A DNA stretch of 64,000 nt from Beroe forskalii (Eukaryota > Ctenophora > Nuda > Beroida > Beroidae), in assembly GCA_011033025.1 (NCBI GenBank), contig WFMF01000524.1:1-64000 (forward strand). Direction: 5' to 3'. A model generated the notes under the pieces. That model saw nothing but the letters and a program-made list of their open reading frames with translations, was not told the DNA's origin and made no database searches. The translations under genes were made by a program, and so were the position numbers. Every line of letters starts with the position of its first letter. Within the stretch, counting starts at the first letter, position 1. Shown here in pieces: positions 13,789 through 63,622 of this stretch.

Positions 13789-14800
13789 TCAGTTTTATCC
13801 TTGAGGGATGAACTCTAACAAAGAGTCCTCCTGTTTTGATCAGCACCATCTTTTGGTATTGTCCGATAACAATACCGGGTCCTCTCCAGGATTTTCCAGT
13901 AGTTTTGTAGTATACTTTATCACCTGGGAAATATCTGGTTTCGTATGAACTGTACACTTTGTCCTTCATTGCCCGTTTAAGTCTGTCTGAGTTTTGTGCC
14001 ATGAGGAATGCTTGCCGTGACTCATGCAAAGCATTAATGTTGTCTGCAACCATTTTGCTGCAGGTTTCACTGTCCAGTTGACTTAGCTTAACTGTTTGAT
14101 CATCAAGTCCTGGAGGAGCTGAATTGTATCCAAGGACTAGTTGCTGAGGGGATAATCCGTAAGCATTACACATGTTGTTTTTTGCATTAACTGCCCAGCA
14201 TAGTGCGATTTCAGTGGAACACTTGGTATCTTCTTTGATTTTGTGAACCATTTCAGCAAGGAGACCATTGTGCCTTTCCACTACTCCATTGCTAAATGGA
14301 GAGAATGCTGCTGTTGTCATCGACTCAATATCCAGATGACGGCACATGTCCACAAAGGCTACACTGCAAAACTCTTTTCCATTGTCAAAGAGAGTCTTTT
14401 TTGGTCTACCAAAGATTGCTATCCAAGATTTGAAGAAATTCTCAATTATAACCTCACTTTCTTTGCTTCTTATCAGCACTGCTGTTGAAAATCTTGTCAG
14501 AAGATCAATACTGTGCAGTATTATCTCTTTGTCATCCAGAAATTTGAGGTCCATCGCTACTGTTTCATTGAACTTGTCAGCCATAGGCAGGCATGTCTTG
14601 GGCTTTGGTGTTTCCCTTCCATGCTTTTTGCACAAATCACAATCCAACTTCTTAAGCTCTTTGCTGATTTCATCCTTCTGATGATGGTCTGTCTTATTCA
14701 CGAATTTGATCAACCTGTCCTTATGTGCATGTCCAAAATATCTGTGAAGCTTAACTGCTATTTTGCAGCTTCTTTATCGTGAGTTTCACATTCTAAGAAT
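13739..14800 (-). pseudogene. LTR-retrotransposon integrase (D,D-35-E)
   Basis: This frame encodes a retroviral-type integrase. The N-terminal zinc-binding region reads KLHRYFGHAH, with the CDLC pair about 35 residues later. The first residues lie in another frame, because a one-base shift near 14758 separates them from the main frame. The catalytic core has D in VAMDLKFLDD, D in LFDNGKEF and E in SNGVVERHN. Exactly 35 residues lie between the last two acids. The C-terminal part, GDKVYYKTTGKSWRGPGIV with VHPSRI, is the DNA-binding tail. It inserts cDNA by strand transfer. It lies after the protease and before a truncated linker, which is the copia order. Confidence 0.85.
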
Positions 14801-14830
14801 ATTTCCTCAGCATCCTTTTTCAGGTCTTTC

Positions 14831-15700
14831 TCAGTCTTGGCAACTGGTATTGCCAGGTGTCCCGATGATGTTGTTATAAGGGTCTGTGGTTTCCCCCTGA
14901 ATTTCAAGGATCCCATGTTCAAAATTGAGATTGGCTTTAGCTTCAGACAGTGTATGTCTAGATATCAGCAGTGGTACATCATTCTCCACAATATTAGCTT
15001 TTATCTGAACTTTCTTTCCGCAGAGGTCTACTGGAATTACTTTCACAACATCTGATTTAACTGGCTTTGAGTCTCCAAACTTGAAATGACTTGTATTATT
15101 CTCCTCTCTGATTTTTCTCCTTTCCTGTTGTGGAAGACTGTTCTCATAGAACTCGAACCATTTCTTCCCACATACAGTTTTCGAAGCTACACTGTCTATC
15201 AGTGCTAGATTCTTTGTTTCACTTGCCAAGTAGATAAGTTGTTCGTCATCATCCATCATAACTGAATCAACTTTCAGAATGACTTCTGATTTATCTTCCT
15301 TCCTTTTCACTGGCTGGTTGATCTGTTCCTTGTATGGACATTCTCTTGCCCAGTGCATGATGCACTTGCAAATATGGCATCCTGAAACCTGTCCTGATGA
15401 TCTGTCAAAACTGTTTCTTCTTGGTGTGCTCCTGTGTATCTTAGGTTGGTCTCTATCAAAGTTAGGTCCTCTCTTTCTTCCTCTCTGATATTGAGATCCC
15501 CTTTGAGGGTGTCCATTCCTTTGACCTCTAGAATAGTTGTAATAAATCTCCCTACTCTCTGGTTCATTTTCATGCTCCTCTTGGCTGTGCATCTCTTGAG
15601 TATGATCTTCTTCCCAGTTTATACTGTTCTTGTAGCTATAATAGTCATCTTGATGACTTGAGTCTTCTTCAGGTTCATATTGCATGTGTTTTCCATACAA
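14831..15700 (-). pseudogene. Gag zinc knuckle and aspartic protease
   Basis: The frame starts with an acidic, basic and Arg/Gly-rich stretch. A retroviral zinc knuckle follows: C-x2-C-x4-H-x4-C, CHICKCIMHWAREC. Next is a pepsin-like protease whose active-site block reads ALIDSVASKTVCG. The usual D-S/T-G is D-S-V here, so activity is doubtful even without frameshifts. PLLISRHTLSEAKANL is the flap-distal region. A frameshift near 14890 separates the end from TSSGHLAIPVAK, which should continue toward the integrase. The gag frame at 15756-16394 precedes it after another frameshift near 15750. Confidence 0.75.
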
Positions 15701-15755
15701 GATCTCTATTGGTTCCTCTTTAACAACTTTGATTTTTGGCGTTACTGATTTTGAT

Positions 15756-16394
15756 TTACTTGATAACCACGTCTGAAGCCTTGAGTAATGTTTTCTTCAT
15801 TTCTTCTAGAGTCATATCTAAAACAGAAGTCCTCACAATCTTTTCATCCTCTCCCAATGCTGCTCCCTTTAGCAGTCTGTAAGAAAGAATTGCATCATTC
15901 ATTGTTACTCCATCTTCTGTGAGTTTCCGTAGAGATGATTCAAATTTGATAATGTACTCTTTCATTGACATAGATGGGTCTCGCTTGATATTCTCAAATT
16001 CTTCATAGTGTCTGAAGACCTTCTCTTCTTCATTCATCCCAAACTTACTTTCTAAGCTTTTTAGTATCAAAACTAGTCCTGGAACTGTCCTTATCCCTTT
16101 TGGACTAGCTGTCATTACTGGCTTTGTGTCTGCTTGAGAATTTGCTTCGCTTTTCCCAGATTCTTCCAATCGGCTCATGCCTGTGTCTGGGTACAGTTCA
16201 CTCTCATTTATATCGAGGACTATATCTAGAGCTCCATCTCTAGTTTGGGAAGCTGATAATCCCATGACCACAGCTCCAACAATTTCATCATCAGCTGCAT
16301 TGTTGGGTATAGTTCTCAGCCAGTTATTGATCAACTTCACCCATTTCTCAAAAGATATCTTTTCTGAGAAAATGGGACTTTTCAATTTGCCCAT
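15756..16394 (-). pseudogene. Gag (capsid) of copia-order LTR element
   Basis: This is a 212-codon frame just inside the LTR. It opens MGKLKSPIFSEKISFEKWV and contains the helical YIIKFESSLRKLTEDGV and ILSYRLLKGAAL blocks, typical of copia-type capsid proteins. It would form the particle that packages element RNA. It is the first coding region after the primer-binding site, as expected, and the chain breaks by frameshift before the zinc-knuckle part. The frame itself has no internal stop, so the copy is fairly young. Confidence 0.7.
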
Positions 16395-16441
16395 AGTAAT
16401 TGATCCTGAAAGAGACTGTTACTGTAGTGGATCGTGACACA

Positions 16442-28358: not shown

Positions 28359-29626
28359 CTAAACTAAGAAACTGGTATGGTGAATGATTTAAATTGAGAT
28401 ATGAATTTAAAATGAATTGAATGTGAATGTTATCCAGTGAAAACTCTTGCGCCCAGAAATCCTTGAGTGGGCAAACACCTACTACTACACACATCCGTAG
28501 CCTCTGAGAAGCTATACGACATCAGACCAAATTCATTTGCAGCGTAGTTTAGACATATTATGTTCAGGTAAAAGAATATGGGCATATATCAAGGGGTTCA
28601 GGGGGCAGGGCTTTCTTAGGGAACACTTTGGGCAAAGCATATTAAACAGGATGGGTGTAAAAAATTGACAAATCAAAGCATAACCTGTAATTTAAGCAAA
28701 ATTTAAGCAATTCACGGTTATAAGTGGTGTTTTCAGTTCCTAGCTAATTATTCAAGAAGTATTTAGAAGTAGATCAGCAGGACCAAAATATGCCAGTCTC
28801 TACTCTCTCATGTATAAACGACGGCGACGGAAGAATTTACCACAAAAAGCAGCTCCACATATTGAACTTCAACAGATCAAGCTATAACGCCAATTTGATG
28901 AATACAATTATTAATATGCACCGTCAGGAGCACTAGTACTTGTGATAAATGGGGTAATGGGGTATAATATCGGCATTTTCGTTGCCAGACGTTGCCTGGC
29001 CCCCTCCAGAGAGTCTGGCAACATTTTTGCATATACTATATAAAAACCAATTTGGCAACATTGATGCAAAATGACTGAAAGTAATATAAAAAGGAAACGT
29101 AAGGAGCGAACAAATCCTTTGATTCCTATAATAATCGGCTGTAAGATATATTTTTGTGGGATGAAGGCTGAGGCAATAGACAAGGGAAAACTGTTTTAAC
29201 TACATTATCACTCTGATGAATGTGACAGGGTCTTAACAAGGTGCTCAATGATCATTCGCCACAATCTGAGTGAAAAAAAAGAAAAAAGTATGGCTATTGG
29301 CTGTTGGAATATAAGCATGAAGAAAATTAAAAAGCAAGAAAATATAAATTCATCATTCTAAAATACGAGACTGCTCGCTAAGGTTGGTACACATCAGATA
29401 ACAATTCAATGACTGAAGCTCATAGGATTGGTTATACTGCAGAGCCTGGAAGGAAATATATGTATTGATCATTATGATTAGGGTATAATACATTGTTGTA
29501 ACTGTGTAATAAATATGGACATAATTAATATTATAATTGCTTGATAACGATATAATCGCCAAAAATGGTGCTGCGGTGGAAAAAAGATCTTTCTCCACTC
29601 TCCGGGGTCAATCCCATTTTTGGTTT

Positions 29627-30246
29627 CCCCGCGCGACTTGCCCGCGCGACGCGCCCTGACCGCCGCCTTGCCCACCTGCCCCATGCTTACCCGACGCGCG
29701 CGACTCCCCCCCGGGGCCCAACGCGCCCAACCGGCCCCGCCGCCTTGCCGCCCCGCCGGGGAACCCCGCCGCCCCCGCGCCGCCGCGACCCGCGCCGCCC
29801 TTTCCCCAAACCCTTTTTTTTCAACCCGCCGCCGCCGCGCGCGCTTGCCCCGCCCCGCGCGCGCGCCGCGCGCCCGCGCGCCCCCCCCACCGGCCCTAAG
29901 TTCTGGGTTTCTTCCCGGGCTTCCCCACTTGCCTTCGCCGCCGCCTTTTTCTCGCCGCGGCCCTTTCCGCCGCGCGCCTTGCCCCTTTCTTGCCCTTGCC
30001 CCGCCCGCCGCCGCCGCCGCCACTTTCTTTACGCCCTTTCTGAAAATTTCTCTTTAACTTTCCGCCGCAAATTTCTAAGTTGCGCGCCGCAGGGGACTTG
30101 GACGCCGCGCTTCTGCCGCCTTTTGCTCGCGCCGCGCGCGCGCCCGGGGCGCGCGCGCGCGCGCCCTAAGTTCTTGCGCCTTGCCCCCGCGCGCGCGCCG
30201 CGCGCGCGCCGCTTGCCCGCGCCTTTCCGCCCCCGCCCGACTCGCG
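29627..30246. other. GC-rich corrupted sequence before gap
   Basis: About 620 bases of runs such as CCGCCGCCTTGCCC with no codon or repeat logic end at the N gap. In copy 2 the equivalent position (41945 onward) is an ACTT/ACTG tetranucleotide tract with CG runs. This block is probably a badly called version of that tract rather than a CpG island. The long proline/arginine/alanine-rich frames on both strands should not be annotated as genes. Confidence 0.6.
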
Positions 30247-30346
30247 NNNNNNNNNNNNNNNNNNNNNNNNNNNNNNNNNNNNNNNNNNNNNNNNNNNNNN
30301 NNNNNNNNNNNNNNNNNNNNNNNNNNNNNNNNNNNNNNNNNNNNNN
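30247..30346. other. Scaffold gap, 100 Ns
   Basis: Exactly 100 Ns, the conventional unknown-size gap. Order and distance across it are not established. Confidence 0.99.
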
Positions 30347-30356
30347 AAAAATTTTT

Positions 30357-32164
30357 GGGGTGATATTTTTCAATTCAAAACCAAGAAACTGGTATGGTGA
30401 ACGATTTAAATTGATTCATTTAAAATGAATTGAATGTGAATGTTATCCAGTGAAAACTCGTGCTTAAAATCCTTGAATGGGCAAACACCTACTATCTACA
30501 CTACACATCCGTCCCAGCCGGCACAAAAACGAAACCAAAAATAAACCAAGAAAAACGTTTTTCTTTGGTTTTATTTTAGTTTTTCATCAAACGTTATTTC
30601 TAAACGTTTTTAATACGTTTAAGAGACGGATCTGTAGAAACGTTTACAAAAACCAAAATTAAACCTTTCTGGATACTTTTATTTTTGGTTTATAATTATA
30701 TATAACGTTTTCTACAAAACATTAATAAACGTATGTGGAACGTTAAATTATGGTTTGAGAAAACTGATTTGTGGATTGAAGTTTCATTCCATAAAAACCT
30801 CAAGTAAACGTTCAAACTATGTATTTTTCGTTCGAAAACCTGTTTATCTAAGACACAAACCTCATGTAGCACCCGGCCAATAAAATTTAATCAGCACAAT
30901 AACCATGGAATCCTCCTGGACTCGCGACGGGAAGATCCAAGGAAACCACGAGTCCCAAACCGAGTTGGGACTCGACGGTACCCTGAATAACAACACTGGT
31001 CAGGAGGAAGTCTCTTCCAGTTCCCGTATCCATGTTGGCAACACCAATCTGCTCTCGGCATATTGGTCCTCCTGGGCAGGGGAGGCATGGATTCGTTTCC
31101 ATCCCAGCGGGAGGCCGGAGATCCGATGCTGGGGACTCAGCTTGGATCTCTTGACTGAGTAGACTACACTTGTCAAACTTCACTGCCGTCTTGCAGTACA
31201 GTTGACTTCGTCGGGCCACTTACTGTTAAACACAGCATTGAAAGTTCATATTTCCTCCGCCACACTGCAGATTTTCTAGCGAGAATTTAACGCGTGATCT
31301 TTGTACACTATATAACTATAATTATACCCCTCCCAAGCTTGATTTAGCGACCGTGTAAGTTCGGTTATACGGTTTTCACTGAATTACAGTGCGAAAAAGC
31401 TTAAAATTAAATTTGATTTTATAAAGGAGCACTCAAAAAATCTACTTAAGCCTTGAATCCGGACGAGGGTCGTCAGACCCGAGTGGGAAGAAATACTGTT
31501 GTTTGGCCGTAGAATAGACGGTCTCAGCTGTTTCCGGTCGGGGTATAATCCGGTTCCATGATCTCAGCTGTGACCGTATACCTACGATAATGAACTCGGC
31601 ACGCCTCGTCCATTATCCAACTTATAGTCTCGGCTGTCGCCTCGAGTATACGGTCACCACTTAGACATGTAACCGCTCAGTATACAAGGCCCAAAACTGC
31701 AAAAGAGTCGGCGCTGAATTACCTCCCTTAAAATTGGATGAGGCCGTTCAAACACATGCAACTCCTCCGAACACACTTCGGGTTCACGTAACTCATTATA
31801 TCGTAACGTTTAATGCCTGAATAAATCAAAAGTAGCGAGTTCAATAAGTTCTACAAAACGTCCGTGCTAACTCAGGTGCAAAATTGTAGCATTGGAACCT
31901 AATTTCACGCACATTAATCGTATTTGGACTTGTTTTAACAAAATCAAGTCGAAAATCTCATGTATATATTGATTTCTTGAAATGCCCTAATTTCTACAAA
32001 ACTTCCGCATGAACTCACGTGCAGCATAATTTCAACTCTTATTTTCCATCATTTTTGACTAATGGACACCAGTACACCATGACAAGGTCACTATAGCATA
32101 TCACTAAATGCGGTAGCAGAACGTTTTTTCGCCGAAAACCTATTTCAATCATTTTGCAGCTCAA
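30357..32164. repeat. Duplicated segment, partial copy (1b)
   Basis: It matches about 35525-37990 of copy 2, including the start of the CCCAGCCGGCAC-ended insertion (from 30513). It carries one copy of the ~300-bp block that is triplicated at 36576-37530. It stops at an LTR fragment at 32165. Open frames here on both strands, e.g. 30887-31219, carry no known motif. Confidence 0.85.
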
Positions 32165-46210: not shown

Positions 46211-46693
46211 ACCAGTTAATAGATTTGCCACGGTTACTGGTATCAATAAGGGTTTATCATGGTACCCATATCAAGTTTGAACCTTACGACAGTGACACTG
46301 TCAGAAAGTCAGTCCGTCTACCAGTCCATTTCACGCTTCTACTGCACGGAACCCATTGGCCGATAATTCCAACCAATAACATGCGAATTGAAAAATCACA
46401 TGAAAATTACATAAGACAACAACAGGTGACAACAACAGAAGCAACAACAGAAGCAACGACAACAACAAAACTCACAATGCATTAGAGTCAATGGTTTGCC
46501 ACTCCCTTTCTCCATTCGTCATTGACATGTTGAAATCAATCCCTGGAGTGAGAGAGTCAGATTTAAGTCAAAATATCTCGAATCAGATGCATTAAAAATT
46601 ATAGTGGGTCTAAATCACAGAAAAAAGTGAGAAGTGCAGACTTTCATTTTTTGCGTCAACCACAAACAGCCTGCGAGGTTTTGGTTCAATCAG

Positions 46694-46886
46694 TTAAAAT
46701 TTGGCTCGCTCTACTGTCCTAACCACGAGAGTAGGGTCTTTGGAGCACTTACTGCGTTTAGTACGAGGCGTGTTGAGGGTCTGGTTGAGGGAGCGGAAAG
46801 TCAGGGATTGAGCAGCAGTGGGTTGCTCCACGTAGTTTGAGGGGAAGTAGCCCCGCTCCCCCTCACTGTTCTCTCCCACCCACCAA
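46694..46886 (-). CDS. AHI1: AHI1-like terminal exon: SH3 second half and C-terminus
   Basis: Read on the minus strand, an acceptor CTCAG at 46887-46891 is followed by T-TGG-TGG. This completes the GG left by the preceding SH3 exon as Gly, then WWVGENSEGERGYFPSNYV. These are the conserved WW, the G-x-FP-x-NYV and the last strands of an SH3 domain. Unlike every other unit of the satellite, this one does not continue into FPHPTPKLPHS. It goes on to SLTFRSLNQTLN and a basic tail, VVRTVERAKF, ending in TAA at 46694-46696. A consensus 5' splice site, GTAAGT, lies at 46752-46747, so the exon might instead end at 46753 and splice onward. I take this as the ancestral terminal exon because only it has unique sequence. 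Confidence 0.7.
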
Positions 46887-47639
46887 CTGAGGGGGAAGGG
46901 GATTTGGTATGTGGGAATGTGGGAGTTTGGGAGTGGGATGTGGGAAAGTCAGGGATTGGGCAGCAGTGGGTTGCTCCACGTAGTTTGAGGGGAAGTAGCC
47001 CCGCTCCCCCTCACTGTTCTCTCCCACCCACCAACTGAGGGGGAAGGGGATTTGGTATGTGGGAATGTGGGAGTTTGGGAGTGGGATGTGGGAAAGTCAG
47101 GGATTGGGCAGCAGTGGGTTGCTCCACGTAGTTTGAGGGGAAGTAGCCCCGCTCCCCCTCACTGTTCTCTCCCACCCACCAACTGAGGGGGAAGGGGATT
47201 TGGTATGTGGGAATGTGGGAGTTTGGGAGTGGGATGTGGGAAAGTCAGGAATTGGGCAGCAGTGGGTTGCTCCACGTAGTTTGAGGGGGAGTACCCCCGC
47301 TCCCCCTCACTGTTCTCTCCCACCCACCAACTGAGGGGGAAGGGGATTTGGTATGTGGGAATGTGGGAGTTTGGGAGTGGGATGTGGGAAAGTCAGGGAT
47401 TGAGCTGGCAGTGGGTTGCTCCACGTAGTTTGAGGGGAAGTAGCCCCGCTCCCCTCACTGTTCTCTCCCACCCACCAACTGAGGGGAAGGGATTTGGTAT
47501 GTGGGAATGTGGGAGTTTGGGAATGGGATGTGGGAAAGTCAGGGATTGAGCAGCAGTGGGTTGCTCCATGTAGTTTGAGGGGAAGTACCCCGCTCCCCTC
47601 ACAGTTCTCTCCCACCCACCAACTACAGGGGAATACCTT

Positions 47640-47960
47640 TGCAGCAGAAACTTGGGAGTTTGGGAGGGATGGAGGGAAAGAGGGATTGAGCAGCAGTGGG
47701 TTGCACGTATCAATTTTATGACGCACGTTTCAAATTTCCGCTCTTTTCTGATAATTTCTCTCCCCGTCCCTGAGTTGAGGTGGTTTGGCAAGGGTGGTTC
47801 CTCCCTTAGTGGATGGGTCCGAGGGCTCCCCTATTTCTTTCCCACCCACCAACTGATAGGGGGTTTGGAATTGGAAAGAGGTTTTTGGGATGTGGAGGGG
47901 AGTGGTCAGTGGAAAACACAGTGGCAGCTGCTTTCTATACACCTTAAAAGTAGGTTTCCC
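47640..47960 (-). repeat. Diverged interruption of the satellite
   Basis: Here the array gives way to sequence that keeps only the acceptor and WWVGK start (near 47850), then a different open frame ending LRDGERNYQKRAEI (minus, to 47730). Either an old unit fused to other DNA or an insertion. Normal units resume at about 47965. Confidence 0.5.
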
Positions 47961-50900
47961 ACGCGCAGTGGGTTGCTCCACGTAGTTTGAGGGGAAGTAG
48001 CCCCGCTCCCCCTCACTGTTCTCTCCCACCCACCAACTGAGGGGGAAGGGGATTTGGTATGTGGGAATGTGGGAGTTTGGGAGTGGGATGTGGGAAAGTC
48101 AGGGATTGGGCAGCAGTGGGTTGCTCCACGTAGTTTGAGGGGAAGTAGCCCCGCTCCCCCTCACTGTTCTCTCCCACCCACCAACTGAGGGGAAGGGGAT
48201 TTGGTATGTGGGAATGTGGGAGTTTGGGAGTGGGATGTGGGAAAGTCAGGGATTGAGCAGCAGTGGGTTGCTCCACGTAGTTTGAGGGGAAGTAGCCCCG
48301 CTCCCCTCACTGTTCTCTCCCACCCACCAACTGAGGGGGAAGGGATTTGGTATGTGGGAATGTGGGAGTTTGGGAGTGGGATGTGGGAAAGTCAGGGATT
48401 GGGCAGCAGTGGGTTGCTCCACGTAGTTTGAGGGGAAGTAGCCCCGCTCCCCTCACTGTTCTCTCCCACCCACCAACTGAGGGGAAGGGATTTGGTATGT
48501 GGGAATGTGGGAGTTTGGGAGTGGGATGTGGGAAAGTCAGGGATTGAGCAGCAGTGGGTTGCTCCACGTAGTTTGAGGGGAAGTAGCCCCGCTCCCCTCA
48601 CTGTTCTCTCCCACCCACCAACTGAGGGGGAAGGGATTTGGTATGTGGGAATGTGGGAGTTTGGGAGTGGGATGTGGGAAAGTCAGGGATTGAGCAGCAG
48701 TGGGTTGCTCCACGTAGTTTGAGGGGAAGTAGCCCCGCTCCCCTCACTGTTCTCTCCCACCCACCAACTGAGGGGAAGGGGATTTGGTATGTGGGAATGT
48801 GGGAGTTTGGGAGTGGGATGTGGGAAAGTCAGGGATTGAGCAGCAGTGGGTTGCTCCACGTAGTTTGAGGGGAAGTAGCCCCGCTCCCCCTCACTGTTCT
48901 CTCCCACCCACCAACTGAGGGGGAAGGGGATTTGGTATGTGGGAATGTGGGAGTTTGGGAGTGGGATGTGGGAAAGTCAGGGATTGAGCAGCAGTGGGTT
49001 GCTCCACGTAGTTTGAGGGGAAGTAGCCCCGCTCCCCCTCACTGTTCTCTCCCACCCACCAACTGAGGGGGAAGGGGATTTGGTATGTGGGAATGTGGGA
49101 GTTTGGGAGTGGGATGTGGGAAAGTCAGGGATTGAGCAGCAGTGGGTTGCTCCACGTAGTTTGAGGGGAAGTAGCCCCGCTCCCCTCACTGTTCTCTCCC
49201 ACCCACCAACTGAGGGGGAAGGGATTTGGTATGTGGGAATGTGGGAGTTTGGGAGTGGGATGTGGGAAAGTCAGGGATTGAGCAGCAGTGGGTTGCTCCA
49301 CGTAGTTTGAGGGGAAGTAGCCCCGCTCCCCCTCACTGTTCTCTCCCACCCACCAACTGAGGGGAAGGGGATTTGGTATGTGGGAATGTGGGAGTTTGGG
49401 AGTGGGATGTGGGAAAGTCAGGGATTGAGCAGCAGTGGGTTGCTCCACGTAGTTTGAGGGGAAGTAGCCCCGCTCCCCCTCACTGTTCTCTCCCACCCAC
49501 CAACTGAGGGGGAAGGGATTTGGTATGTGGGAATGTGGGAGTTTGGGAGTGGGATGTGGGAAAGTCAGGGATTGAGCAGCAGTGGGTTGCTCCACGTAGT
49601 TTGAGGGGAAATAGCCCCGCTCCCCCTCACTGTTCTCTCCCACCCACCAACTGAGGGGAAGGGATTTGGTATGTGGGAATGTGGGAGTTTGGGAGTGGGA
49701 TGTGGGAAAGTCAGGGATTGAGCAGCAGTGGGTTCCACGTAGTTTGAGGGGAAGTAGCCCCGCTCCCCTCACTGTTCTCTCCCACCCACCAACTGAGGGG
49801 GAAGGGGATTTGGTATGTGGGAATGTGGGAGTTTGGGAGTGGGATGTGGGAAAGTCAGGGATTGAGCAGCAGTGGGTTGCTCCACGTAGTTTGAGGGGAA
49901 GTAGCCCCGCTCCCCCTCACTGTTCTCTCCCACCCACCAACTGAGGGGGAAGGGGATTTGGTATGTGGGAATGTGGGAGTTTGGGAGTGGGATGTGGGAA
50001 AGTCAGGGATTGAGCAGCAGTGGGTTGCTCCACGTAGTTTGAGGGGAAGTAGCCCCGCCCCCTCACTGTTCTCTCCCACCCACCAACTGAGGGGAAGGGA
50101 TTTGGTATGTGGGAATGTGGGAGTTTGGGAGTGGGATGTGGGAAAGTCAGGGATTGAGCGGCAGTGGGTTGCTCCACGTAGTTTGAGGGGAAGTAGCCCC
50201 GCTCCCCCTCACTGTTCTCTCCCACCCACCAACTGAGGGGAAGGGGATTTGGTATGTGGGAATGTGGGAGTTTGGGAGTGGGATGTGGCAAAGTCAGGGA
50301 TTGAGCAGCAGTGGGTTGCTCCACGTAGTTTGAGGGGAAGTAGCCCCGCTCCCCTCACTGTTCTCTCCCACCCACCAACTGAGGGGGAAGGGGATTTGGT
50401 ATGTGGGAATGTGGGAGTTTGGGAGTGGGATGTGGGAAAGTCAGGGATTGAGCAGCAGTGGGTTGCTCCACGTAGTTTGAGGGGAAGTAGCCCCGCTCCC
50501 CCTCACTGTTCTCTCCCACCCACCAACTGGGGGGGAAGGGATTTGGTATGTGGGAATGTGGGAGTTTGGGAGTGGGATGTGGGAAAGTCAGGGATTGAGC
50601 AGCAGTGGGTTGCTCCACGTAGTTTGAGGGGAAGTAGCCCCGCTCCCCCTCACTGTTCTCTCCCACCCACCAACTGAGGGGGAAGGGGATTTGGTATGTG
50701 GGAATGTGGGAGTGGGATGTGGGAAAGTCAGGGATTGAGCAGCAGTGGGTTGCTCCACGTAGTTTGAGGGAAGTAGCCTCCCCTCACTGTTCTCTCCCAC
50801 CCACCAACTGAGGGGAAGGGGATTTGGTATGTGGGAATGTGGGAGTTTGGGAGTGGGATGTGGGAAAGTCAGGGATTGAGCTGCAGTGGGTTGCTCCACG

Positions 50901-53900
50901 TAGTTTGAGGGGAAGTAGCCCCGCTCCCCTCACTGTTCTCTCCCCACCCACCAACTGAGGGGAAGGGATTTGGTATGTGGGAATGTGGGAGTTTGGGAGT
51001 GGGATGTGGGAAAGTCAGGGATTGAGCAGCAGTGGGTTGCTCCACGTAGTTTGAGGGGAAGTAGCCCGCTCCCCTCACTGTTCTCTCCCACCCACCAACT
51101 GAGGGGGAAGGGGATTTGGTATGTGGGAATGTGGGAGTTTGGGAGTGGGATGTGGGAAAGTCAGGGATTGAGCAGCAGTGGGTTGCTCCACGTAGTTTGA
51201 GGGGAAGTAGCCCCGCTCCCCCTCACTGTTCTCTCCCACCCACCAACTGAGGGGAAGGGATTTGGTATGTGGGAATGTGGGAGTTTGGGAGTGGGATGTG
51301 GGAAAGTCAGGGATTGAGCAGCAGTGGGTTGCTCCACGTAGTTTGAGGGGAAGTAGCCCCGCTCCCCCTCACTGTTCTCTCCCACCCACCAACTGAGGGG
51401 AAGGGATTTGGTATGTGGGAATGTGGGAGTTTGGGAGTGGGATGTGGGAAAGTCAGGGATTGAGCAGCAGTGGGTTGCTCCACGTAGTTTGAGGGGAAGT
51501 AGCCCCGCTCCCCCTCACTGTTCTCTCCCACCCACCAACTGAGGGGAAGGGATTTGGTATGTGGGAATGTGGGAGTTTGGGAGTGGGATGTGGGAAAGTC
51601 AGGGATTGAGCAGCAGTGGGTTGCTCCACGTAGTTTGAGGGAAGTAGCCCGCTCCCCTCACTGTTCTCTCCCACCCACCAACTGAGGGGGAAGGGATTTG
51701 GTATGTGGGAATGTGGGAGTTTGGGAGTGGGATGTGGGAAAGTCAGGGATTGAGCAGCAGTGGGTTGCTCCACGTAGTTTGAGGGGAAGTAGCCCCGCTC
51801 CCCCTCACTGTTCTCTCCCACCCACCAACTGAGGGGAAGGGGATTTGGTATGTGGAATGTGGGAGTTTGGGAGTGGGATGTGGGAAAGTCAGGGATTGAG
51901 CAGCAGTGGGTTGCTCCACGTAGTTTGGGGGAAGTAGCCCCGCTCCCCCTCACTGTTCTCTCCCACCCACCAACTGAGGGGGGGATTTGGTATGTGGGAA
52001 TGTGGGAGTTTGGGAGTGGGATGTGGGGAAAGTCAGGGATTGAGCAGCAGTGGGTTGCTCCACGTAGTTTGGGGAAGTAGCCCCGCTCCCCCTCACTGTT
52101 CTCTCCCACCCACCAACTGAGGGGAAGGGATTTGGTATGTGGGAATGTGGGAGTTTGGGAGTGGGATGTGGGAAAGTCAGGGATTGAGCAGCAGTGGGTT
52201 GCTCCACGTAGTTTGAGGGGAAGTAGCCCCGCTCCCCCCTCACTGTTCTCTCCCACCCACCAACTGAGGGGAAGGGATTTGGTATGTGTGGGAATGTGGG
52301 AGTTTGGGAGTGGGATGTGGGAAAGTCAGGGATTGAGCAGCAGTGGGTTGCTCCACGTAGTTTGAGGGGAAGTAGCCCCGCTCCCCTCACTGTTCTCTCC
52401 CACCCACCAACTGAGGGGAAGGGGATTTGGTATGTGGGAATGTGGGAGTTTGGGAGTGGGATGTGGGAAAGTCAGGGATTGAGCAGCAGTGGGTTGCTCC
52501 ACGTAGTTTGAGGGGAAGTAGCCCCGCTCCCCTCACTGTTCTCCCACCCACCAACTGAGGGGAAGGGGATTTGGTATGTGGGAATGTGGGAGTTTGGGAG
52601 TGGGATGTGGGAAAGTCAGGGATTGAGCTGCAGTGGGTTGAGGGGAAGTAGCCCCGCTCCCCTCACTGTTCTCTCCCACCCACCAACTGAGGGGAAGGGA
52701 TTTGGTATGTGGGAATGTGGAGTTTGGGAGTGGGATGTGGGAAAGTCAGGATTGAGCAGCAGTGGGTTGCTCCACGTAGTTTGAGGGGAAGTAGCCCCGC
52801 TCCCCCTCACTGTTCTCTCCCACCCACCAACTGAGGGGAAGGGATTTGGTATGTGGGAATGTGGGAGTTTGGGAGTGGGATGTGGGAAAGTCAGGGATTG
52901 AGCAGCAGTGGGTTGCTCCACGTAGTTTGAGGGGAAGTAGCCCCGCTCCCCCTCACTGTTCTCTCCCACCCACCAACTGAGGGGAAGGGATTTGGTATGT
53001 GGGAATGTGGGAGTTTGGGAGTGGGATGTGGGAAAGTCAGGATTGAGCAGCAGTGGGTTGCTCCACGTAGTTTGAGGGGAAGTAGCCCGCTCCCCCCTCA
53101 CTGTTCTCTCCCACCCACCAACTGAGGGGAAGGGATTTGGTATGTGGGAATGTGGGAGTTTGGGAGTGGGATGTGGGAAAGTCAGGGATTGAGCAGCAGT
53201 GGGTTGCTCCACGTAGTTTGAGGGGGAAGTAGCCCCGCTCCCCTCACTGTTCTCTCCCACCCACCAACTGAGGGGAAGGGATTTGGTATGTGGGAATGTG
53301 GAGTTTGGGAGTGGGATGTGGAAAGTCAGGGATTGGGCAGCAGTGGGTTGCTCCACGTAGTTTGAGGGGAAGTAGCCCCGCTCCCCCTCACTGTTCTCTC
53401 CCACCCACCAACTGAGGGGGAAGGGATTTGGTATGTGGAATGTGGGAGTTTGGGAGTGGGATGTGGGAAAGTCAGGGATTGAGCGGCAGTGGGTTGCTCC
53501 ACGTAGTTTGAGGGGAAGTAGCCCCTGCTCCCCTCACTGTTCTCTCTCCCACCCACCAACTGAGGGGGAAGGATTTGGTATGTGGGAATGTGGGAGTTTG
53601 GGAGTGGGATGTGGGAAAGTCAGGGATTGAGCAGCAGTGGGTTGTCTAATGTAGTTTGAGGGGAAGTAGCCCTGCCCCCCCTCATTGTTCTCTCCCACCC
53701 ACCAACTGAGGGGAAGGGATTTTGCATGTGGGAGTGTGGGAGCTTGGGAGTGGGATGTGGGAAAGTCAGGGATTGAGCTGCAGTGGGTTGCTCCACGTAG
53801 TTTGAGGGGAAGTAGCCCTGCCCCCCTCACTGTTCTCTCCCACCCACCAACTGAGGGGAAGGGATTTGGTATGTGGGAATGTGGGAGTTTGGGAGTGGGA

Positions 53901-56900
53901 TGTGGGAAAGTCAGGGATTGAGCAGCAGTGGGTTGCTCCACGTAGTTTGAGGGGAAGTACCCCCGCTCCCCCTCATTGTTCTCTCCCCACCCACCAACTG
54001 AGGGGGAAGGGGATTTGGTATGTGGGAATGTGGGAGTTTGGGAGTGGGATGTGGGAAAGTCAGGGATTGAGCAGCAGTGGGCTGCTCCACGTAGTTTGAG
54101 GGGAAGTAGCCCCTGCCCCCCTCACTGTTCTCTCCCACCCACCAACTGAGGGGGGAAGGGGACGGTATGGGAATGTGGGAGTTTGGGAGTGGGATGTGGG
54201 AAAGTCAGGGATTGAGCAGCAGTGGGTTGCTCCACGTAGTTTGAGGGAAAGTAGCCCCGCTCCCCCTCACTGTTCTCTCCCACCCACCAACTGAGGGGGG
54301 AAGGGACGGGTATGTGGAATGTGGTTTGGGAGGGGATGTGGAAAGTCAGGGATTGAGCCGCAGTGGGTTCATGTAGTTTGAGGGGAAGTAGTTCTCTCCC
54401 ACCCACCAACTGGGAGGGGGAAGGATTTGGCATGGGAATGTGGGATGGCTTGGGAGTGGAAAGTCAGATTGGCAGCAGTGGGTTGCCCAATGTAGTTTGA
54501 GGGGGAAGTAGCCCTGCCCCTCACTGTTCTCCTCCCACCCACCAACTGAGGGGAAGGGACGGTATGTGGGAATGGGAGTTTGGGAGGGATGTGGGAAAGT
54601 CAGGGATTGAGCTGCAGTGGGTTGCTCCACGTAGTTTGAGGGGGAAGTAGCCCGCCCCCTCATTGTTCTCTTCCCACCCACCAACTGAGGGGGAAGGGAT
54701 TGGTGTGGGAATGTGGGAGTTTGGGAGGGATGTGGAAAGTCAGGGATTGAGCAGCAGTGGGCTGCTCCAATGTAGTTTGAGGGGAAGTAGCCCCTGCCCC
54801 CTCATTGTTGTTCTCTCCCACCCACCAACTGAGGGGAAGGGATTATGTGGGAATGGGAGTTTGGGGAGTGGGATGAAAGTCAGGGATTGAGCAGCAGTGG
54901 GGTTGCCCAATGTAGTTTGAGGGGAGAAAGCCCCCTGCCTCATCATTGTTCTCTCCCCACCCACCAACCGAGGGGAAGGGGATTTGGTATGTGGGAATGT
55001 GGGTTTGGGAGTGGGATGGGAAAGTCAGGGATTGGGCAGTGGGTTGCCCACGCAGTTTGAGGGGGAAGTAGCCCTGCCCCCCCTCACTGTTTCCCTCCCC
55101 ACCCACCAACTGAGGGGGAAGGATTTGGGTATGTGGGAATGTGGAGTTTGGGAGTGGGATGGGAAAGTCAGGGATTGAGCTGCAGTGGGCTGCTCCACGT
55201 AGTTTGAGGGGAAGTAGCCCCGCTCCCCCCTCATTGTTCTCTCCCACCCACCAACTGAGGGGGAAGGATTTGGTATGGGAATGTGGGAGTTTGGGAGTGG
55301 GATGTGGGAAAGTCAGGGATTGAGCAGTGGGTTGCTCCACGTAGTTTGAGGGGGGAAGCCCTGCCCCTCACTGTTCTCTCTCCCACCCACCAACTGAGGG
55401 GAAGGGATTTGGTATGTGGGAATGGGAGTTTGGGAGGGATGTGGGAAAGTCAGGGTTTGAGCAGCAGGGTTGCTCCACGTAGTTTGAGGGGAAGTAGCCC
55501 TGCCCCCCTCGACTGTTCTCCCACCCACCAACTGAGGGGGAAGGGGATTTGGTATGGGAATGTGGGAGTTTGGGAGGATGGGAAAGTCAGGGATTGAGCT
55601 GCAGTGGCTGCCCAATGCAGCTTGAGGGGAAGTAGCCCTGCCCCTCATTGTTCTCTCCTCCCCACCCACCAACTGAGGGGGAAGGGACGGGTATGGGAAT
55701 GTGGAGTTTGGGAGTGGGAGGGAAAGTCAGGGATTGAGCAGCAGTGGGTTGCTCCACGTAGTTTGAGGGAAGTAGGCCCCTGCCCCTCATTGCTCCTCCC
55801 CCACCCACCAACTGAGGGGGAAGGGATTTAGTATGTGGGAAATGTGGGAGTTTGGGAGGGATGTGGGAAAGTCAGGATTGGACAGCAGTGGTTGCTCCAA
55901 TAGTCGAGGGGAAGTAAGCCCCGCTCCCCTCACTGTTCTCTCCCACCCACCAACTGAGGGGGAAGGGCAGTGTGGGAATGTGGGAGTTTGGGGAGGGATG
56001 AGGGAAAGTCAGGGATTGAGCTGCAGTGGTTGTCTAATGTAGTTTGAGGGGAAGTAGCCCTGCCCCCTCACTGTTCCCTCCCACCCACCAACTGAGGGGA
56101 AGGACGGGTATGTGGGAATGTGGGAGTTTGGGAGGGATGGGAAAGTCAGGGGATTGAGCAGCAGTGGGGTTGCCCCAATGTAGTTTGAGGGGAAGTAGCC
56201 CTGCCCCTCATTGTTCTCCCCACCCACCAACTGAGGGGAAGGGGATTTGGTATGTGGAATGTGGGAGTTTGGGGAGGGATGTGGGAAAGTCAGGATTGAG
56301 CAGCAGTGGGTTGCTCTACGTAGTTTGAGGGGAAGTAAACTCGCTCCCCTCACATTGTTCTCTCCCACCCACCAACTGAGGGGAAGGGGATTTGGCATGT
56401 GGGAATGTATTTGGGGTGGGATGGGAAAAGTCAGGGATTGAGCAGCAGTGGGTTGCTCCACGTAGTTTGAGGGGAAGTAGCCCTGCTCCCCCCTCATTGT
56501 TCTCCCACCCACCAACTGAGGGGGACGGTATGTGGAATGTGGGAGTTTGGTGGGACATGGGAAAGCCAGGATTGAGCTGCAGTGGGTTGCTCCACGTAGT
56601 TTGAGGGGAAGTAGCCCTGCCCCCTCACTGTTCTCTCCCCACCCACCAACTGGAAGGGGAAGGGATTGGCATGTGGGAATGTGGGAGTTTGGGAGGGGAT
56701 GGGAAAGTCAGGGATTGAGCTGCAGTGGGTTGTCTGCACGTAGTTTGAGGGGGAGCAGCCCGCCCCCCTCACTGTTCCTCCCTACCCACCAACTGAGGGG
56801 GAAGGGATTTGGTATGTGGGAAATGTGGAGTTTGGGAGTGGATGTGGGAAAGTCAGGATTGAGCGGCAGTGGGTTGCTCCACGAAGTTTGAGGGGAAGTA

Positions 56901-59024
56901 GCCCCGGCCCCCTCACTGTTCTCCCACCCACCAACTGAGGGGAAGGATTGGTATGTGGGAATGTGGGAGTTTGGGAGTGGGATGTGGGAAAAAGTCAGGG
57001 ATTGAGCAGCAGTGGGTTGGGTTCCAATGTAGTTTGAGGGGAAGTAGCCCTGCCCCTCACTGCCCCTCCCCACCCACCAACTGAGGGGAAGGGACGGTAT
57101 GTGGGAGTGTGGGAGTTTGGGAGTGGGATGTGGGAAAGTCAGGGATTGAGCAGCAGTGGGCTCCACGTAGTTTGAGGGGGAAGTAGCCCTGCCCCCTCAT
57201 TTCTCCCACCCACCAACTGAGGGGAAGGGATTATGTGGGAATGTGGGAGTTTGGGAGGGGGATGGGAAACAGGGATTGAGCAGCAGTGGGTTACACGTAG
57301 TTTGAGGGAAGTAGCCCTGCCCCCACATTGTTCTCTCCTACCCACCAACTGAGGGGAAGGGGATTTGGCAATGTGGGAATGTGGGAGTTTGGGAGGATGG
57401 GAAAGTCAGGGATTGAGCAGCAGTGGGCTGTCTAATGGGCCGCAGGGGAAGTAGCCCTGCCCCTCACTGTTCTCTCCCACCCACCAACTGAGGGGAAGGG
57501 ATTTGGTATGTGGAATGTGGGAGTTGGGGGAGGATGGGAAAGTCAGGATTGAGCAGGGTTGTTCAATCGGCGTTTGAGGGGGTACCCCCCTGCCCCCTCA
57601 CTGTTCTCTCCCACCCACCAACTGAGGGGGGAAGGGATTTGGGTATGTGGGAATGTGGGTGGGATGTGGGAAAAGTCAGGATTGAGCAGCAGTGGGTTGC
57701 TCCACGTAGTTTGAGGGAAGTTCCTGCCCCTCTCATTGTTCTCTCCCACCCACCAACTTGAGGGGGGAAGGGATTTGGTATGGGAATGTGGAGTTGGGGA
57801 GTGGGATGTGGGAAAGCTAGGGATTGAGCAGCAGTGGGTTGCTCCACGTAGTTTGAGGGGAAGTAGCCCTGCTCCCCTCACTGTTCTCTCCCACCCACCA
57901 ACTGAGGGGGAAGGGATTTGGTATGTGGGGAATGTGGGAGTTTGGGAGTGGGATGGGAAAGTCAGATTGGGCAGCAGTGGGTTGGCTCCACGTAGTTTGA
58001 GGGGAAGTAGCCCTGCTCCCCTCTGTTCCTCTCCTACCCACCAACTGGGGAAGGGATTTGGTATGTGGGAAATGTGGAGTTTGGGAGGGGATGTGGGAAA
58101 GTCAGGAATTGAGCTGCAGTGGGTTGCTCCACGTAGCTTTGAGGGGAAGTAGCCCCGCTCCCCTCACTGCTCTCTCCCACCCACCAACTGAGGGGGGAAG
58201 GGATTTGGTATGGGAATGGGAGTTTGGGAGTGGGATGGTGGTCAGGATTGAGCAGCAGGGTTGCTCCACGTAGTTTGAGGGGAAGTAGCCCCTGCCCCTC
58301 ATTGTTCTCCCTCCCTACCCACCAACTTGAGGGGAAGGGTATTTGGTATGTGGGAATGTGGGAGTTTGGGAGGGATGTGGGAAAGCCAGGGATTGAGCAG
58401 CAGTGGGTTGCTCCACGTAGTTTGAGGGGGAAGTAGCCCCTGCTCCCCCTCATTACTGCTCTCCCACCCACCAACTGAGGGGAAGGACGGTATGTGGGAA
58501 TGTGGGAGTTTGGGGCGGGATGGGAAAAGTCAGGGATTGAGCAGCAGTGGGTTGCTCCACGTAGTTTGAGGGGAAGTAGCCCTGCCCCCTCACTGTTCTC
58601 TCTCCCACCCACCAACTGAGGGGAAGGGACGATTTGGCATGGGAATGTGGGTGTTTGGGAGGGATGAGGGAAAGTCAGGATTGAGCAGCAGTGGGTTGCT
58701 CCACGTAGTTTGAGGGGAAGTAGCCCTGCCCCCCCCACTGTCTTCCCACCCACCAACTGAGGGGCTTTGGCATGTGAATGTGGAGTTTGGGAGTGGGATG
58801 TGGGAAAGTCAGGGATTGAGCAGCAGTGGGTTGCTCCACGAAGTTTGAGGGGAAGTAGCCCTGCCCTCACTGTTCTCTCCCCACCCACCAACTGAGGGGG
58901 GATTTGGTATGTGGGAAATGTGGGAGTTTTTGGGAGGATGTGGGTCAGGGATTGGGGCAGCAGGTTGCCCTGACGTAGTTTGAGGGGAAGTACCCCCGCT
59001 CCCCCTCACTGTTCTCTCCCACCC

Positions 59025-59652
59025 TCATTCGCAATATGTCTACTAGAATGTTCAAAAATTGAACGAACAATACTTAGGTAAAATACTCTCTTTTGTTTTC
59101 TATCCAATGTAAAATGGCATGTACGCATTAACAACCCTAGCTTTTAGACCGAAGTTAGCAACAAGCTTTATCACAGTGATCCTTCCATGAGAGTTTCCCA
59201 TTAACATATACCCCAGATCCTTCTTGAGAGTCGATATAATCAATAAAAAACACGACCGAGTTTTATAATTAAATACTGTACATGGGAGATTATGGTAGGA
59301 TATTGATTTTGTTTTGTAGACTGATAGGCTTACATTTTAAGGGTGAATTTCATCTTGTTTTTGGTGGCCCAAGCCTGGAGGTTATCTATATCAGTCTGGA
59401 GAGCAAAAATGATCATCCGATGTGATGATTTCCATATTTTAGAAGGTGTCGTCAGCGTACAAAACAATTTGGGTTCCCCAGAGATACAGGAAAACATGTC
59501 GTTAATAAATAATACAATAGATGGGCCGAGGATGGAACCGCGGCACACTCTGAATCTATATACTGAGGGGTCGATGTGGCCTCCTAAGACTACTTGCTGC
59601 AGCCGACCTTCCAGATAAGACTTATGAACCCTAAGCCCAATTAAACCCAATT
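59025..59652 (-). mobile_element. 5'-truncated LINE inside the satellite
   Basis: A minus-strand reverse-transcriptase fragment (SYLEGRLQQVVLGG, RGSILGP, LFINDMFSCISG, LQTDIDNLQAWATKNKMKF) carries the C-terminal part of an RT; its catalytic ADD is damaged. It is flanked by the 5-bp duplication CACCC at 59020-59024 and 59653-59657, which is satellite sequence. The insertion therefore postdates the array. The coding remnant spans about 59330-59652. The rest is the degenerate 3' part. Confidence 0.75.
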
Positions 59653-60201
59653 CACCCACCAACTGAGGGGAAGGGATTTGGTATGTGGGAATGTGGGAGT
59701 TTGGGAGTGGGATGTGGGAAAGTCAGGGATTGGCAGCAGTGGGTTGCTCTACGTAGTTTGGGGAAGTAGCCCTGCCCCCTCACTGTTCTCTCCCACCCAC
59801 CAACTGAGGGGAAGGGATTTGGCATGGGAAATGTGAGTTTGGGAGTGGGATGTGGAAAGTCAGGGATGAGCAGCAGTGGGTTGCTCCCACGAGGGAAGTA
59901 GCCCGCCTCCCTCACTGTTCTCTCCCACCCACCAACTGAGGGGAAGGGATTTGGTATGTGGGAATGGGAGTTTGGGAGTGGGATGTGGGAAAGTCAGGAT
60001 TGAGCGGCAGTGGGTTGCTCCACGTAGTTTGAGGGGAAGTAGCCCTGCTCCCTCACTGTTCTCACCCACCAACTGAGGAAGAGGGATTGTGGGAATGTGG
60101 GAGTTTGGGAGTGGGATGTGGGAAAGTCAGGGATTGAGCTCAGTGGGTTCCTTTTCGCTTATTTGGCGTTGGAAATAAACCCGTAATTAGTAGTTAATTA
60201 C

Positions 60202-60296
60202 CCGTCAGTGTCGATGTAAATCAGCTTCACGTATTTGCCTGCCATCAGTGATATCTCGTCACTTCTTTGAGAGGCGTAATCGTGCAGTATCTGCAG
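60202..60296 (-). CDS. AHI1: AHI1-like exon: SH3 first half
   Basis: A 95-base exon on the minus strand with acceptor GTTCAG and donor GG|GTAATT. It reads LQI then LHDYASQRSDEISLMAGKYV and KLIYIDTDG. This is the ALYDY motif (here LHDY), the RT-loop acids (SDE) and the start of the n-Src loop of an SH3 domain. It begins in phase 0, matching the donor phase of the exon at 60504. It ends with two bases, GG, that need a T to make Gly; the satellite unit begins with exactly that T followed by WW. The SH3 domain is thus split across two exons, and the second half is the amplified one. Confidence 0.8.
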
Positions 60297-60503: not shown

Positions 60504-60697
60504 CTTGACATAGTTAGCGGATGAGATGCCGGTGACTTGAGCCGCTCCAGGCGTCAGAGTGATGTTCATACCTCCTCCCCCTCCTCCCAGGGTGGCAGTG
60601 TTAAGTGGCAGTGTGGCGGCGTTAAGTGGCAGTGTGGCGGCGTTAAGTGGCGTGCTGCCCAGCAGACCACTGTTCAGCGGGGGCAGCCGCAGCCTTC
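60504..60697 (-). CDS. AHI1: AHI1-like exon: linker between WD40 and SH3
   Basis: A 194-base exon, acceptor CATTCAG, donor AAG|GTGGGT. It reads LPPLNSGLLGSTPLN, then a small internal repeat of LPLNAAT (three tandem 21-base copies, ending LPLNTAT), a run of glycines, MNITLTPGAAQVTG and ISSANYVK. It starts by completing a codon after one base from the exon at 61048 (G+GA) and ends in phase 0 before the SH3 exon. The low-complexity composition fits an inter-domain linker, as between the WD40 and SH3 domains of jouberin. Confidence 0.7.
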
Positions 60698-61047: not shown

Positions 61048-61152
61048 CTGCAGTTCCTGAGACGAGGGGAGTGGGGGAGCGGGAGGAGGGGGATCTGGAG
61101 GGGGAAACAGTGAGGAGCTTCTCTTTGATGGCGTCCATCTGCACTGTTCCTT
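61048..61152 (-). CDS. AHI1: AHI1-like exon: linker (the exon next to the VNTR)
   Basis: A 105-base exon, acceptor CTCGCAG, donor GCAG|GTGCTT. It reads EGTVQMDAIKEKLLTVSP then a Ser/Arg/Pro-rich end, SRSPTPLVSGTA. Phase is consistent on both sides: one base arrives from the exon at 63191 and one base leaves to the exon at 60504. The acceptor lies at the very edge of the 28-bp minisatellite, and a second copy of most of this exon sits at 61207-61306. Confidence 0.7.
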
Positions 61153-62550
61153 CTGCGAGGGGTGTTGTCAAGGGGGGGGGTGTCATTTGAGAGGGGGTTG
61201 TCAAGGGTTCCTGAGACGAGGGGAGTGGGGGAGCGGGAGGAGGGGGATCTGGAGGGGGACACAGTGAGGAGCTTCTCTTTGATGGCGTCCATCTGCACTG
61301 TCCCTTCTGCGAGGGGGGCTGTCAAGGGGGGGGTGTCATTTGAGAGGGGGTTGTCAAGGGGTGTGATTTGAGAGGGGTTGTAAAGGGGTGTGATTTGAGA
61401 GGGGGGTTGTCAAGGGGTTTGATTTGAGAGGGGTTTTTCAAGGGGGGGGGGTGTGATTTGAGAGGGGGTTGTAAAGGGGTGTGATTTGAGAGGGGGTTTG
61501 TAAAGGGGTGTGATTTGAGAGGGGTTTGTCAAGGGGTGTGATTTGAGGGGGTGTCAAGGAGGTGATTTGAGAGGGGGGTATGTCAAGGGGTGTGATTTGA
61601 GAAGGGGTTGTCAAGGGGTTTGATTTGAGAGGGGGTATGTCAAGGGGTGTGATTTGAGAGGGGGGTTGTCAAGGGGTGTGATTTGAGAGGGGCTGTCAAG
61701 GGGTGTGATTTGAGAGGGGGTTGTCAAGGGGTGTGATTTGAGAGGGGGTGTCAAGGAGGGTGATTTGAGAGGGGGGTTGTCAAGGGGTGTGATTTGAGAG
61801 GGGGGTTTGTCAATGGGTTTGATTTGAGAGGGGGTTGTCAAGGGGTGTGATTTGAGAGGGGAGTTGTAAAGGGGTGTGATTTGAGAGGGGGTTTGTCAAG
61901 GGGTGGGGTTTGTCAAGGGTGTGATTTGAGAGGGGGTTGTCAAGGGTGTGATTTGAGAGGGGGTTGTCAAGGGGTGTGATTTGAGAGGGGTTGTCAAGGG
62001 GTGTGATTTGAGAGGGGGGCTGTCAAGGGGTGTGATTTGAGAGGGGGGTTGTCAAGGGGTGTGATTTGAGAGGGGGTGTCAAGGGGTGTGATTTGAGAGG
62101 GGGCTGTCAAGGGGTGTGGTTTGAGAGGGGGGTTGTCAAGGGGTGTGATTTGAGAGGGGGCTGTCAAGGGGTGTGATTTGAGAGGGGGCTGTCAAGGGGT
62201 TTGATTTGAGAGGGGGGTTGTCAAGGAGTGTGATTTGAGGGGGGTTGTCAAGGGGTCTGATTTGAGAGGGGGTTGTAAAGGGGTGTGATTTGAGAGGGGG
62301 GTTGTCAAGGGGTGTGATTTGAGAGGGGGTGTCAAGGAGGGTGATTTGAGAGGGGGTATGTAAAGGGGTGTGATTTGAGAGGAGGGCTGTCAAGGGGTTT
62401 GATTTGAGAGGGGGTTTGTCAAGGGGTGTGATTTGAGAGGGGGTTGTCAAGGGGTTTGATTTGAGAGGGGGGTTGTCAAGGGGTTTGATTTGAGAGGGGT
62501 ATGTCAAAGGGTGTCGTTTGAGGGGGGGAGGTTGTCAAGGGGTGGTGTCA
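61153..62550. repeat. 28-bp VNTR in the AHI1-like intron, ~48 units
   Basis: Units of the form GGGGTGTGATTTGAGAGGGG followed by a short TTGTCAA spacer, with length changes mainly in the G-runs. It surrounds the duplicated exon on both sides and starts at the acceptor of the functional exon. It is strongly G-rich on the plus strand, i.e. pyrimidine-rich in the transcript. Confidence 0.95.
61207..61306 (-). pseudogene. Partial duplicate of the 61048-61152 exon, no donor
   Basis: About 100 bases nearly identical to the neighbouring exon, including the CTCGCAG acceptor. After GTCTCAGGAAC the sequence runs into the minisatellite (CCTTGACAACCCC), losing the GCAG|GT donor. If its acceptor were used, the reading would continue into minisatellite sequence. 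Confidence 0.75.
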
Positions 62551-63190: not shown

Positions 63191-63352
63191 CTGGCAGCTT
63201 TGCAGTATCTTGCTTCTTCCCCTCCCTCCTGTAAACCACAACAGGCTGCGCGGACCCGAAGGCTGCTACCGCTGCAAAGTTATCATGCGGGTGGAACTTA
63301 ACATCCGAGGTGCTGTGAGGAATTCCTGTCTTGTACGTATACGTTACTTCGC
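63191..63352 (-). CDS. AHI1: AHI1-like exon: end of WD40 propeller
   Basis: A 162-base exon, acceptor CCTTCAG, donor CCAG|GTATGA. It reads GEVTYTYKTGIPHSTSDV, then KFHPHDNFAAVAAFG, SAQPVVVYRREGKKQ and DTAKLP. The H-P-x-x-N-x-x-A-x-x-A-F-G-x-x-x-P-V-x-V-Y pattern is what I know from the last WD40 blade of AHI1/jouberin. It joins the 63544 exon by completing Gly in ETG-EV and leaves one base for the 61048 exon. AHI1 acts at the ciliary transition zone. Identification rests on WD40 plus SH3 in this order. Confidence 0.75.
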
Positions 63353-63543: not shown

Positions 63544-63622
63544 CTGTTTCTACCAGCCACACGTACACATCGCCGTCCTCACTGGCAGATAACACGTACG
63601 TCCCACAGGGAGACACTGAACA
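63544..63622 (-). CDS. AHI1: AHI1-like exon: WD40 repeat
   Basis: A 79-base exon with a strong acceptor (CCCTCCCTCCCCAG) and donor CAG|GTAACT. It reads SPCGTYVLSASEDGDVYVW then LVETG, a textbook WD40 blade (S-x-S-x-D-G-x-V-x-V-W). It starts in phase 0 and ends with one base. The upstream exons of the gene would lie beyond 64000; no further exon is evident in 63623-64000. Confidence 0.8.

Follow-up and report, generated by a model that had tools for sequence, protein, structure and literature searches.

A giant boundary minisatellite between the two SH3 half-exons of an AHI1 (jouberin) gene in the ctenophore Beroe forskalii

In a 64,000-nucleotide stretch of the Beroe forskalii genome (assembly GCA_011033025.1, contig WFMF01000524.1, positions 1 to 64,000; hereafter the window), two exons encoding the halves of one SH3 domain are separated by about 13 kb of tandem repeats. 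The array lies downstream of the first half-exon on the minus strand and comprises about 88 units of about 147 bp, each a copy of the 3' splice site and the start of the exon that completes the domain. The units nearest the true exon are the younger ones, and copies of exon boundaries recur at other exons of the same gene and at other loci. We consider it probable that the array is a giant mirage, i.e., a boundary minisatellite that has grown beside the true AHI1 exon, with the last acceptor being chosen since most decoys have no donor. The relevant features of the window are listed below.

46694–46886, minus strand: X14, true distal copy, coding for the second SH3 half and then a unique C-terminus with its stop; candidate terminal exon
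46887–60149, minus strand: array of units made of intron end and exon start, delimited by TRF, site counts and a profile
60202–60296, minus strand: X13, AHI1 exon coding for the first SH3 half; its donor is ACGG|gtaatt
60504–60697, minus strand: X12, AHI1 exon, boundary copies not found
61048–61152, minus strand: X11, AHI1 exon
61207–61306, minus strand: decoy of X11 with the acceptor and 100 of the 105 exon nucleotides, without a donor
61330–62544, minus strand: 28-bp minisatellite resembling the intron end at the X11 acceptor
63192–63352, minus strand: X10, AHI1 exon, WD40, boundary copies not found
63544–63622, minus strand: X9, AHI1 exon, WD40, boundary copies not found

The array unit consists of about 91 nt matching the start of the distal exon and about 54 nt matching the end of the intron, in agreement with the original prediction that a 3' splice site and the beginning of a domain-completing exon had been amplified. 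The coordinates given there for an exon ending in the middle of the domain (60202–60296), followed on the same strand by the array, were also right. TRF reports repeats at 46795–47704, 47965–59024 (146 bp × 77.5) and 59653–60149, the array being broken at about 59025–59652 and 47705–47964 by two stretches unlike the unit. Exact CAG|TTGGTGG sites number 84 on the minus strand, AG|TTGGTGG sites on the same strand number 87 with the true exon counted in, and of the 90 units matched in a profile search 88 cover at least 100 of the 148 positions; the predicted copy number was about 85. A search of the 216-Mb assembly with the DNA of one unit returned 10 matches, all at the AHI1 locus (common words were skipped and few candidates scored), and no second array was found elsewhere within this limited candidate set.

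By eye, the interruption at 59025–59652 resembles a fragment of a non-LTR reverse transcriptase, and Pfam gave no match to this partly misread piece. Open frames at 13309–16418 (minus strand) contain an integrase core (rve) above the Pfam threshold together with a weak match to copia-type gag, as in a copia-like retroelement. An open frame at 1443–2273 (plus strand) carries a 2OG-Fe(II) oxygenase (AlkB-like) domain with 54.6 bits, and a GC-rich region with long overlapping open frames at 29478–30428 includes a 100-N assembly gap (30247–30346).

Joining X13 (60202–60296) to X14 (46886–46694) yields a complete SH3 domain (Pfam SH3_9, 44.6 bits with a cut-off of 30). Its best match in the PDB is neutrophil cytosol factor 1 (3.8e-13), and the SH3 domain of jouberin (4ESR) ranks sixth (6.4e-12). 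We mapped 13 AHI1 exons between 86210 and 46694 of the contig (C608), and at least one further WD40 exon was not found. The spliced model has 657 residues, in which Pfam recognizes WD40 followed by SH3, both over the cut-off. A protein search with this model passed 198 proteins; among the best 120 of the 198, the first (4.9e-97) bears a name other than jouberin and the second is the jouberin of Spea bombifrons (7.7e-97, 33% identity over 93% of the query). The jouberins found by this search and the order of WD40 and SH3 bear out the predicted AHI1-like gene. No other AHI1 copy was detected in the assembly, an 80-residue WD40 piece matching only the AHI1 locus among the six candidates scored. 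Judged by its sequence, the gene is the AHI1 (jouberin) orthologue, a cilia gene. COX1 of the assembly, translated with code 4, matches COX1 of Beroe forskalii at 100% identity across a 500-residue query, which marks the source as a ctenophore and very probably as this species.

The amplification took place between two neighboring exons, as predicted, and the distal copy is a candidate last exon. A terminal X14 would have to be defined through 3'-end processing, but neither AATAAA nor ATTAAA occurs from 46694 to 46300 (within 390 nt), the next such signal being at 44154. X14 contains a GTAAGT at 46752 (after 46753), which scores 0.02 on a small donor model owing to the preceding A, and an open 67-nt exon candidate at 46542–46476 has a good acceptor and would keep the frame. 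With this GTAAGT and this exon candidate, the gene may continue past X14.

The distal copy (46886–46694) is the sole unit that reaches unique coding sequence, with its own C-terminus and stop, as had been claimed. The related claim that every intact unit completes the SH3 domain does not hold, the C-terminal half being open in frame at 28 of the 87 AG|TTGGTGG sites (true exon counted in). The out-of-frame units are broken by small indels, many having one G fewer in the G run. Among codon positions in the units the third varies least, and there is thus no sign of coding constraint on the decoys. We rejected amplification of the coding sequence for its own sake on these grounds, most units being out of frame and without codon-position constraint.

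The array is strongly structured by age. Relative to the consensus, substitutions in the exon part amount to 1.0% among 47 distal units and to 7.6% among 30 proximal units, which also have more indels; the comparison was restricted to regularly spaced units (77 of 84), picked by exact CAGTTGGTGG. The place of a unit in the array correlates with how closely it matches the distal-most full unit (Spearman coefficient −0.84 over the 77 units), and within either half of the array identity is independent of distance. CpG decay gives no clear mark of age, with G>A in 26 of 66 cases and C>T in 0 of 64. In 38 proximal units we counted 210 transitions and 98 transversions and, with one selected reference as the baseline, 528 deleted versus 48 inserted positions.

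Some of these features could also arise if part of the array, chiefly its diverged proximal part, were an artefact of assembly or of consensus calling, which would fit both the abundance of proximal indels and a unit identity that is alike at every distance. The transition excess favours real mutation and the deletion excess leaves room for consensus error. Variants recur in several units, however, and divergence changes gradually; moreover, the mapped exons of the contig are open and unrelated loci show a like design, and we regard an artefact as very unlikely.

The splice junction does not share in the decay of the proximal units. The junction 10-mer G|TTGGTGGGT is identical in 37 proximal units, compared with a mean of 0.85 over the unit, and it is unchanged also in 38 proximal profile units that were selected without a splice-site requirement. 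The adjacent window AGTTGGTGGG shows 1 distinct change against 17.4 expected (Poisson 5e-7; 7e-5 over 139 windows), where the expectation is the site mean and assumes that sites mutate alike. Plain drift is no explanation for an unchanged junction in old units. It is possible that the decoy acceptors are functional, as alternative exon starts or as a reservoir that slows or regulates splicing, and that selection keeps their junctions. The constancy of the 10-mer and the units that complete SH3 in frame would agree with such a role, but the exon parts have no codon-position constraint, most units are out of frame, and an array at an unrelated locus (C177, see below) has its most conserved run inside the exon part rather than at the junction. 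A function of this kind appears quite unlikely.

Boundary amplification is not peculiar to the SH3 exon. We compared each exon with 30 nt on either side to the contig by BLAST (E 1e-4, at least 10 nt of exon) and found upstream copies of the exon's own 3' splice site and start at 6 of the 13 AHI1 exons (X1, X3, X7, X8, X11 and X14). X14 has 91 upstream matches with pieces counted in, X8 has 31, X3 has 19, and X11 has one, covering 100 of 105 nt. One of the three matches of X1 spans the acceptor (89 nt, 95.5%), and the other two are exon pieces. X7 has two matches at the BLAST threshold, and TRF reports a 34-bp unit repeated 57 times, which includes the X7 acceptor and the first 16 nt of the exon. 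The same comparison with the contig gave no upstream boundary match for X2, X4, X5, X9, X10, X12 and X13. Downstream copies with exon end and donor occur at X3 only (12 matches), and the acceptor side does not differ significantly from the donor side (6 of 13 versus 1 of 12; P = 0.073).

Tandem repeats make up 57% of the contig between 46.6 and 94 kb. The coding exon X12 itself holds a 21-bp tandem repeat (window 60588–60651). In antisense within an AHI1 intron lies the end of a calmodulin-like EF-hand gene (C608 78500–79269, equivalent to L018 4500–5269), with the Pfam EF-hand found on a translation made by eye, and a 33-bp array of 14 copies at this place begins with copies of that gene's C-terminal codons and stop. 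Upstream of X1 (L019 4552–9235 and 2200–4600; C608 86.2–93.3 kb) there is a 32-bp array of about 146 copies with short X1 pieces scattered between.

The survey was extended to 18 stretches of 10 kb taken from 47 SH3 matches in the genome and chosen before their arrays were inspected; two of them (L037 and L038) encode an identical SH3 peptide and perhaps represent a single gene present twice. Upstream decoys of the exon's own acceptor and start are present at 2 of the 18 sampled SH3 exons, with two decoys of CAG|CGATGTTTGA at L041 and two of CTCAG|GAAGTACCGCCCCC at L028, and no downstream decoys were found at the 18 exons. Another array at L028 (1971–2542, 73 bp × 7.8) has a last copy that runs into an open exon ending HATALFEFEAEIDDELDFK, followed by a GTGAGTG donor. 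This exon resembles the beginning of an SH3 domain, and Pfam gave no match to it. A further case is the 52-bp array with 72 near-full units at C177 (354577–350782), where the exon was predicted from the acceptor-like motif of the array and then found by fetching further sequence. The final copy leads into 212 open nucleotides that encode VLFERVSMSPSELREC..., followed by the donor GG|GTTAGT and, behind it, by more open exon candidates. The C177 exon has no match in Pfam or PDB and is called coding because of its open frame and splice sites. Boundary amplification thus affects five more AHI1 exons and, outside AHI1, four exons at three loci (two exons at L028, one at L041 and one at C177).

Several other candidates were set aside. 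The self-matches at L026 and L034 lie inside an open frame, and that at L031 comes from a related exon about 7 kb away. At L027 the array stops at the acceptor of the SH3 exon, but its units have no clear exon sequence; it is an irregular array of CCCTCTGTAG-type sequence (4126–4862, reverse strand). Arrays with units of at least 15 bp occupy 7% of the sampled 180 kb. In the 56 arrays of the 18 SH3 loci the better acceptor-like site is on the sense strand in 31, on the antisense strand in 18, and 7 are ties, a weak trend in a set where a minority of the arrays are shown to be boundary arrays.

Conservation in these other arrays bears on the unchanged junction of X14. Of the 10-mers in the X3 array (23 units), the best conserved lies across the junction; in the X7 array (53 units) the best one stops at the acceptor's A, and in the X8 array (30 units) the junction 10-mer comes second (0.993 versus 0.997). 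All three arrays have short and homopolymer-rich units. At C177 the longest invariant run falls within the exon part instead of the junction, which argues against junction invariance as a general rule. The junction core could be a hot spot of recombination or conversion, so that its invariance would reflect the copying of the array and not splicing. The invariant core is indeed G-rich (GTTGGTGGGT), as the cores of hypervariable minisatellites often are, but the conserved stretches of the X3, X7 and X8 arrays have little in common beyond the acceptor CAG, and we think this explanation unlikely. A broader idea, that the 3' splice junction itself is the multiplying unit, also seems doubtful; introns genome-wide would then grow by copies of their own acceptors, with junctions kept for reasons related to splicing (selection or boundary-tied copying), and dozens of rival acceptors would be normal.

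With so many copies in the intron, one must ask how splicing tells the true exon from its decoys; donor-like sites may provide the distinction. The best recurrent donor-like scores in the decoys are 4.1 for X14, −0.8 for X7 and −0.3 for X8, whereas the 12 AHI1 donors, which also trained the score, reach 7.3–10.4. Single donor-like sites scoring at least 5 number 7 in the X14 array and 3 in the X7 array. The X3 decoys are an exception to the explanation by donor-less decoys: their CAG|GTGTCT, with a score of 9.5, falls among the real donors. Recursive splicing was considered and rejected, AG|GT being present at the junction in X3 decoys but not in those of X14, X7 and X8.

These results lead us to propose that units multiply beside the true exon through slippage or unequal exchange, and that older units would drift away into the intron, which would lengthen while the message is largely spared. 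The decoys would present an acceptor and, in three of the four scored acceptor arrays, no recurrent donor close to a real one. Exon definition could then pick the last acceptor, which is backed by a donor or a 3' end, and the resulting protein would be an ordinary jouberin. Boundary minisatellites may be tolerated because most decoys have no donor.

The original prediction held the phenomenon to be undescribed, and in this it was mistaken, as amphioxus mirages are already in print (PMC3087553, PMC3902484). They are described as minisatellite-like tandem duplications spanning an intron–exon boundary, where either boundary of the exon can be duplicated (PMC3087553). The BflGb6 mirage has 6 and 3 units of 150–160 bp in two haplotypes; splicing appeared regular, and Adh3 was somatically unstable (PMC3087553). 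Further lancelet mirages, in troponin C and PGBD5, are mentioned in PMC3902484. Within the open-licence PMC literature, we found mirages only for amphioxus.

As in amphioxus, the Beroe unit lies across the boundary, copying can affect both kinds of boundary, the true exon stands apart and splice signals are kept. At AHI1 the tandem duplication crosses the boundary with AG retained at 87 units, and copies lie upstream of six exons and downstream of X3 alone. The Beroe case differs in occurring in a ctenophore, in having about 88 units over 13 kb versus 6 and 3 in BflGb6, and in affecting six exons of one gene. It is larger and denser than the published mirage examples compared. The kind of structure is thus already published, if little studied; what is new is the phylum, the scale, the density and a junction 10-mer that stays constant in 37 decayed units.

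Two other systems are partly alike. Intron gain in potato RdRp (PMC4974935) also involves tandem duplication of a splice site inside a gene, but it creates an intron, whereas the Beroe array lengthens an existing one. Internal tandem repeats in human segmental duplications (PMC2812944) likewise lie at exon–intron boundaries and may change gene structure; many of them alter coding sequence, whereas the Beroe copies are presumably intronic. Among ctenophores, the Hormiphora genome paper gives a tandem-repeat content of 13% and describes genes nested in introns as well as trans-spliced leaders (PMC8527503), and the words 'tandem', 'intron' and 'splice' are absent from the main text of the Beroe ovata genome paper (PMC11184263).

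The locus offers a natural competition experiment in which one donor faces about 90 near-identical acceptors and the farthest is expected to be used. This would allow direct tests, in a ctenophore, of how exons are defined, how acceptors are scanned and where cryptic splicing reaches its limits; of all the features, the constancy of the decoy junctions most deserves further study. Intron growth of this kind may go unnoticed after repeat masking and in short-read assemblies. Ctenophores are often placed as the sister group of other animals. With boundary minisatellites now seen in a phylum distant from amphioxus, such arrays may represent a general route of intron growth.
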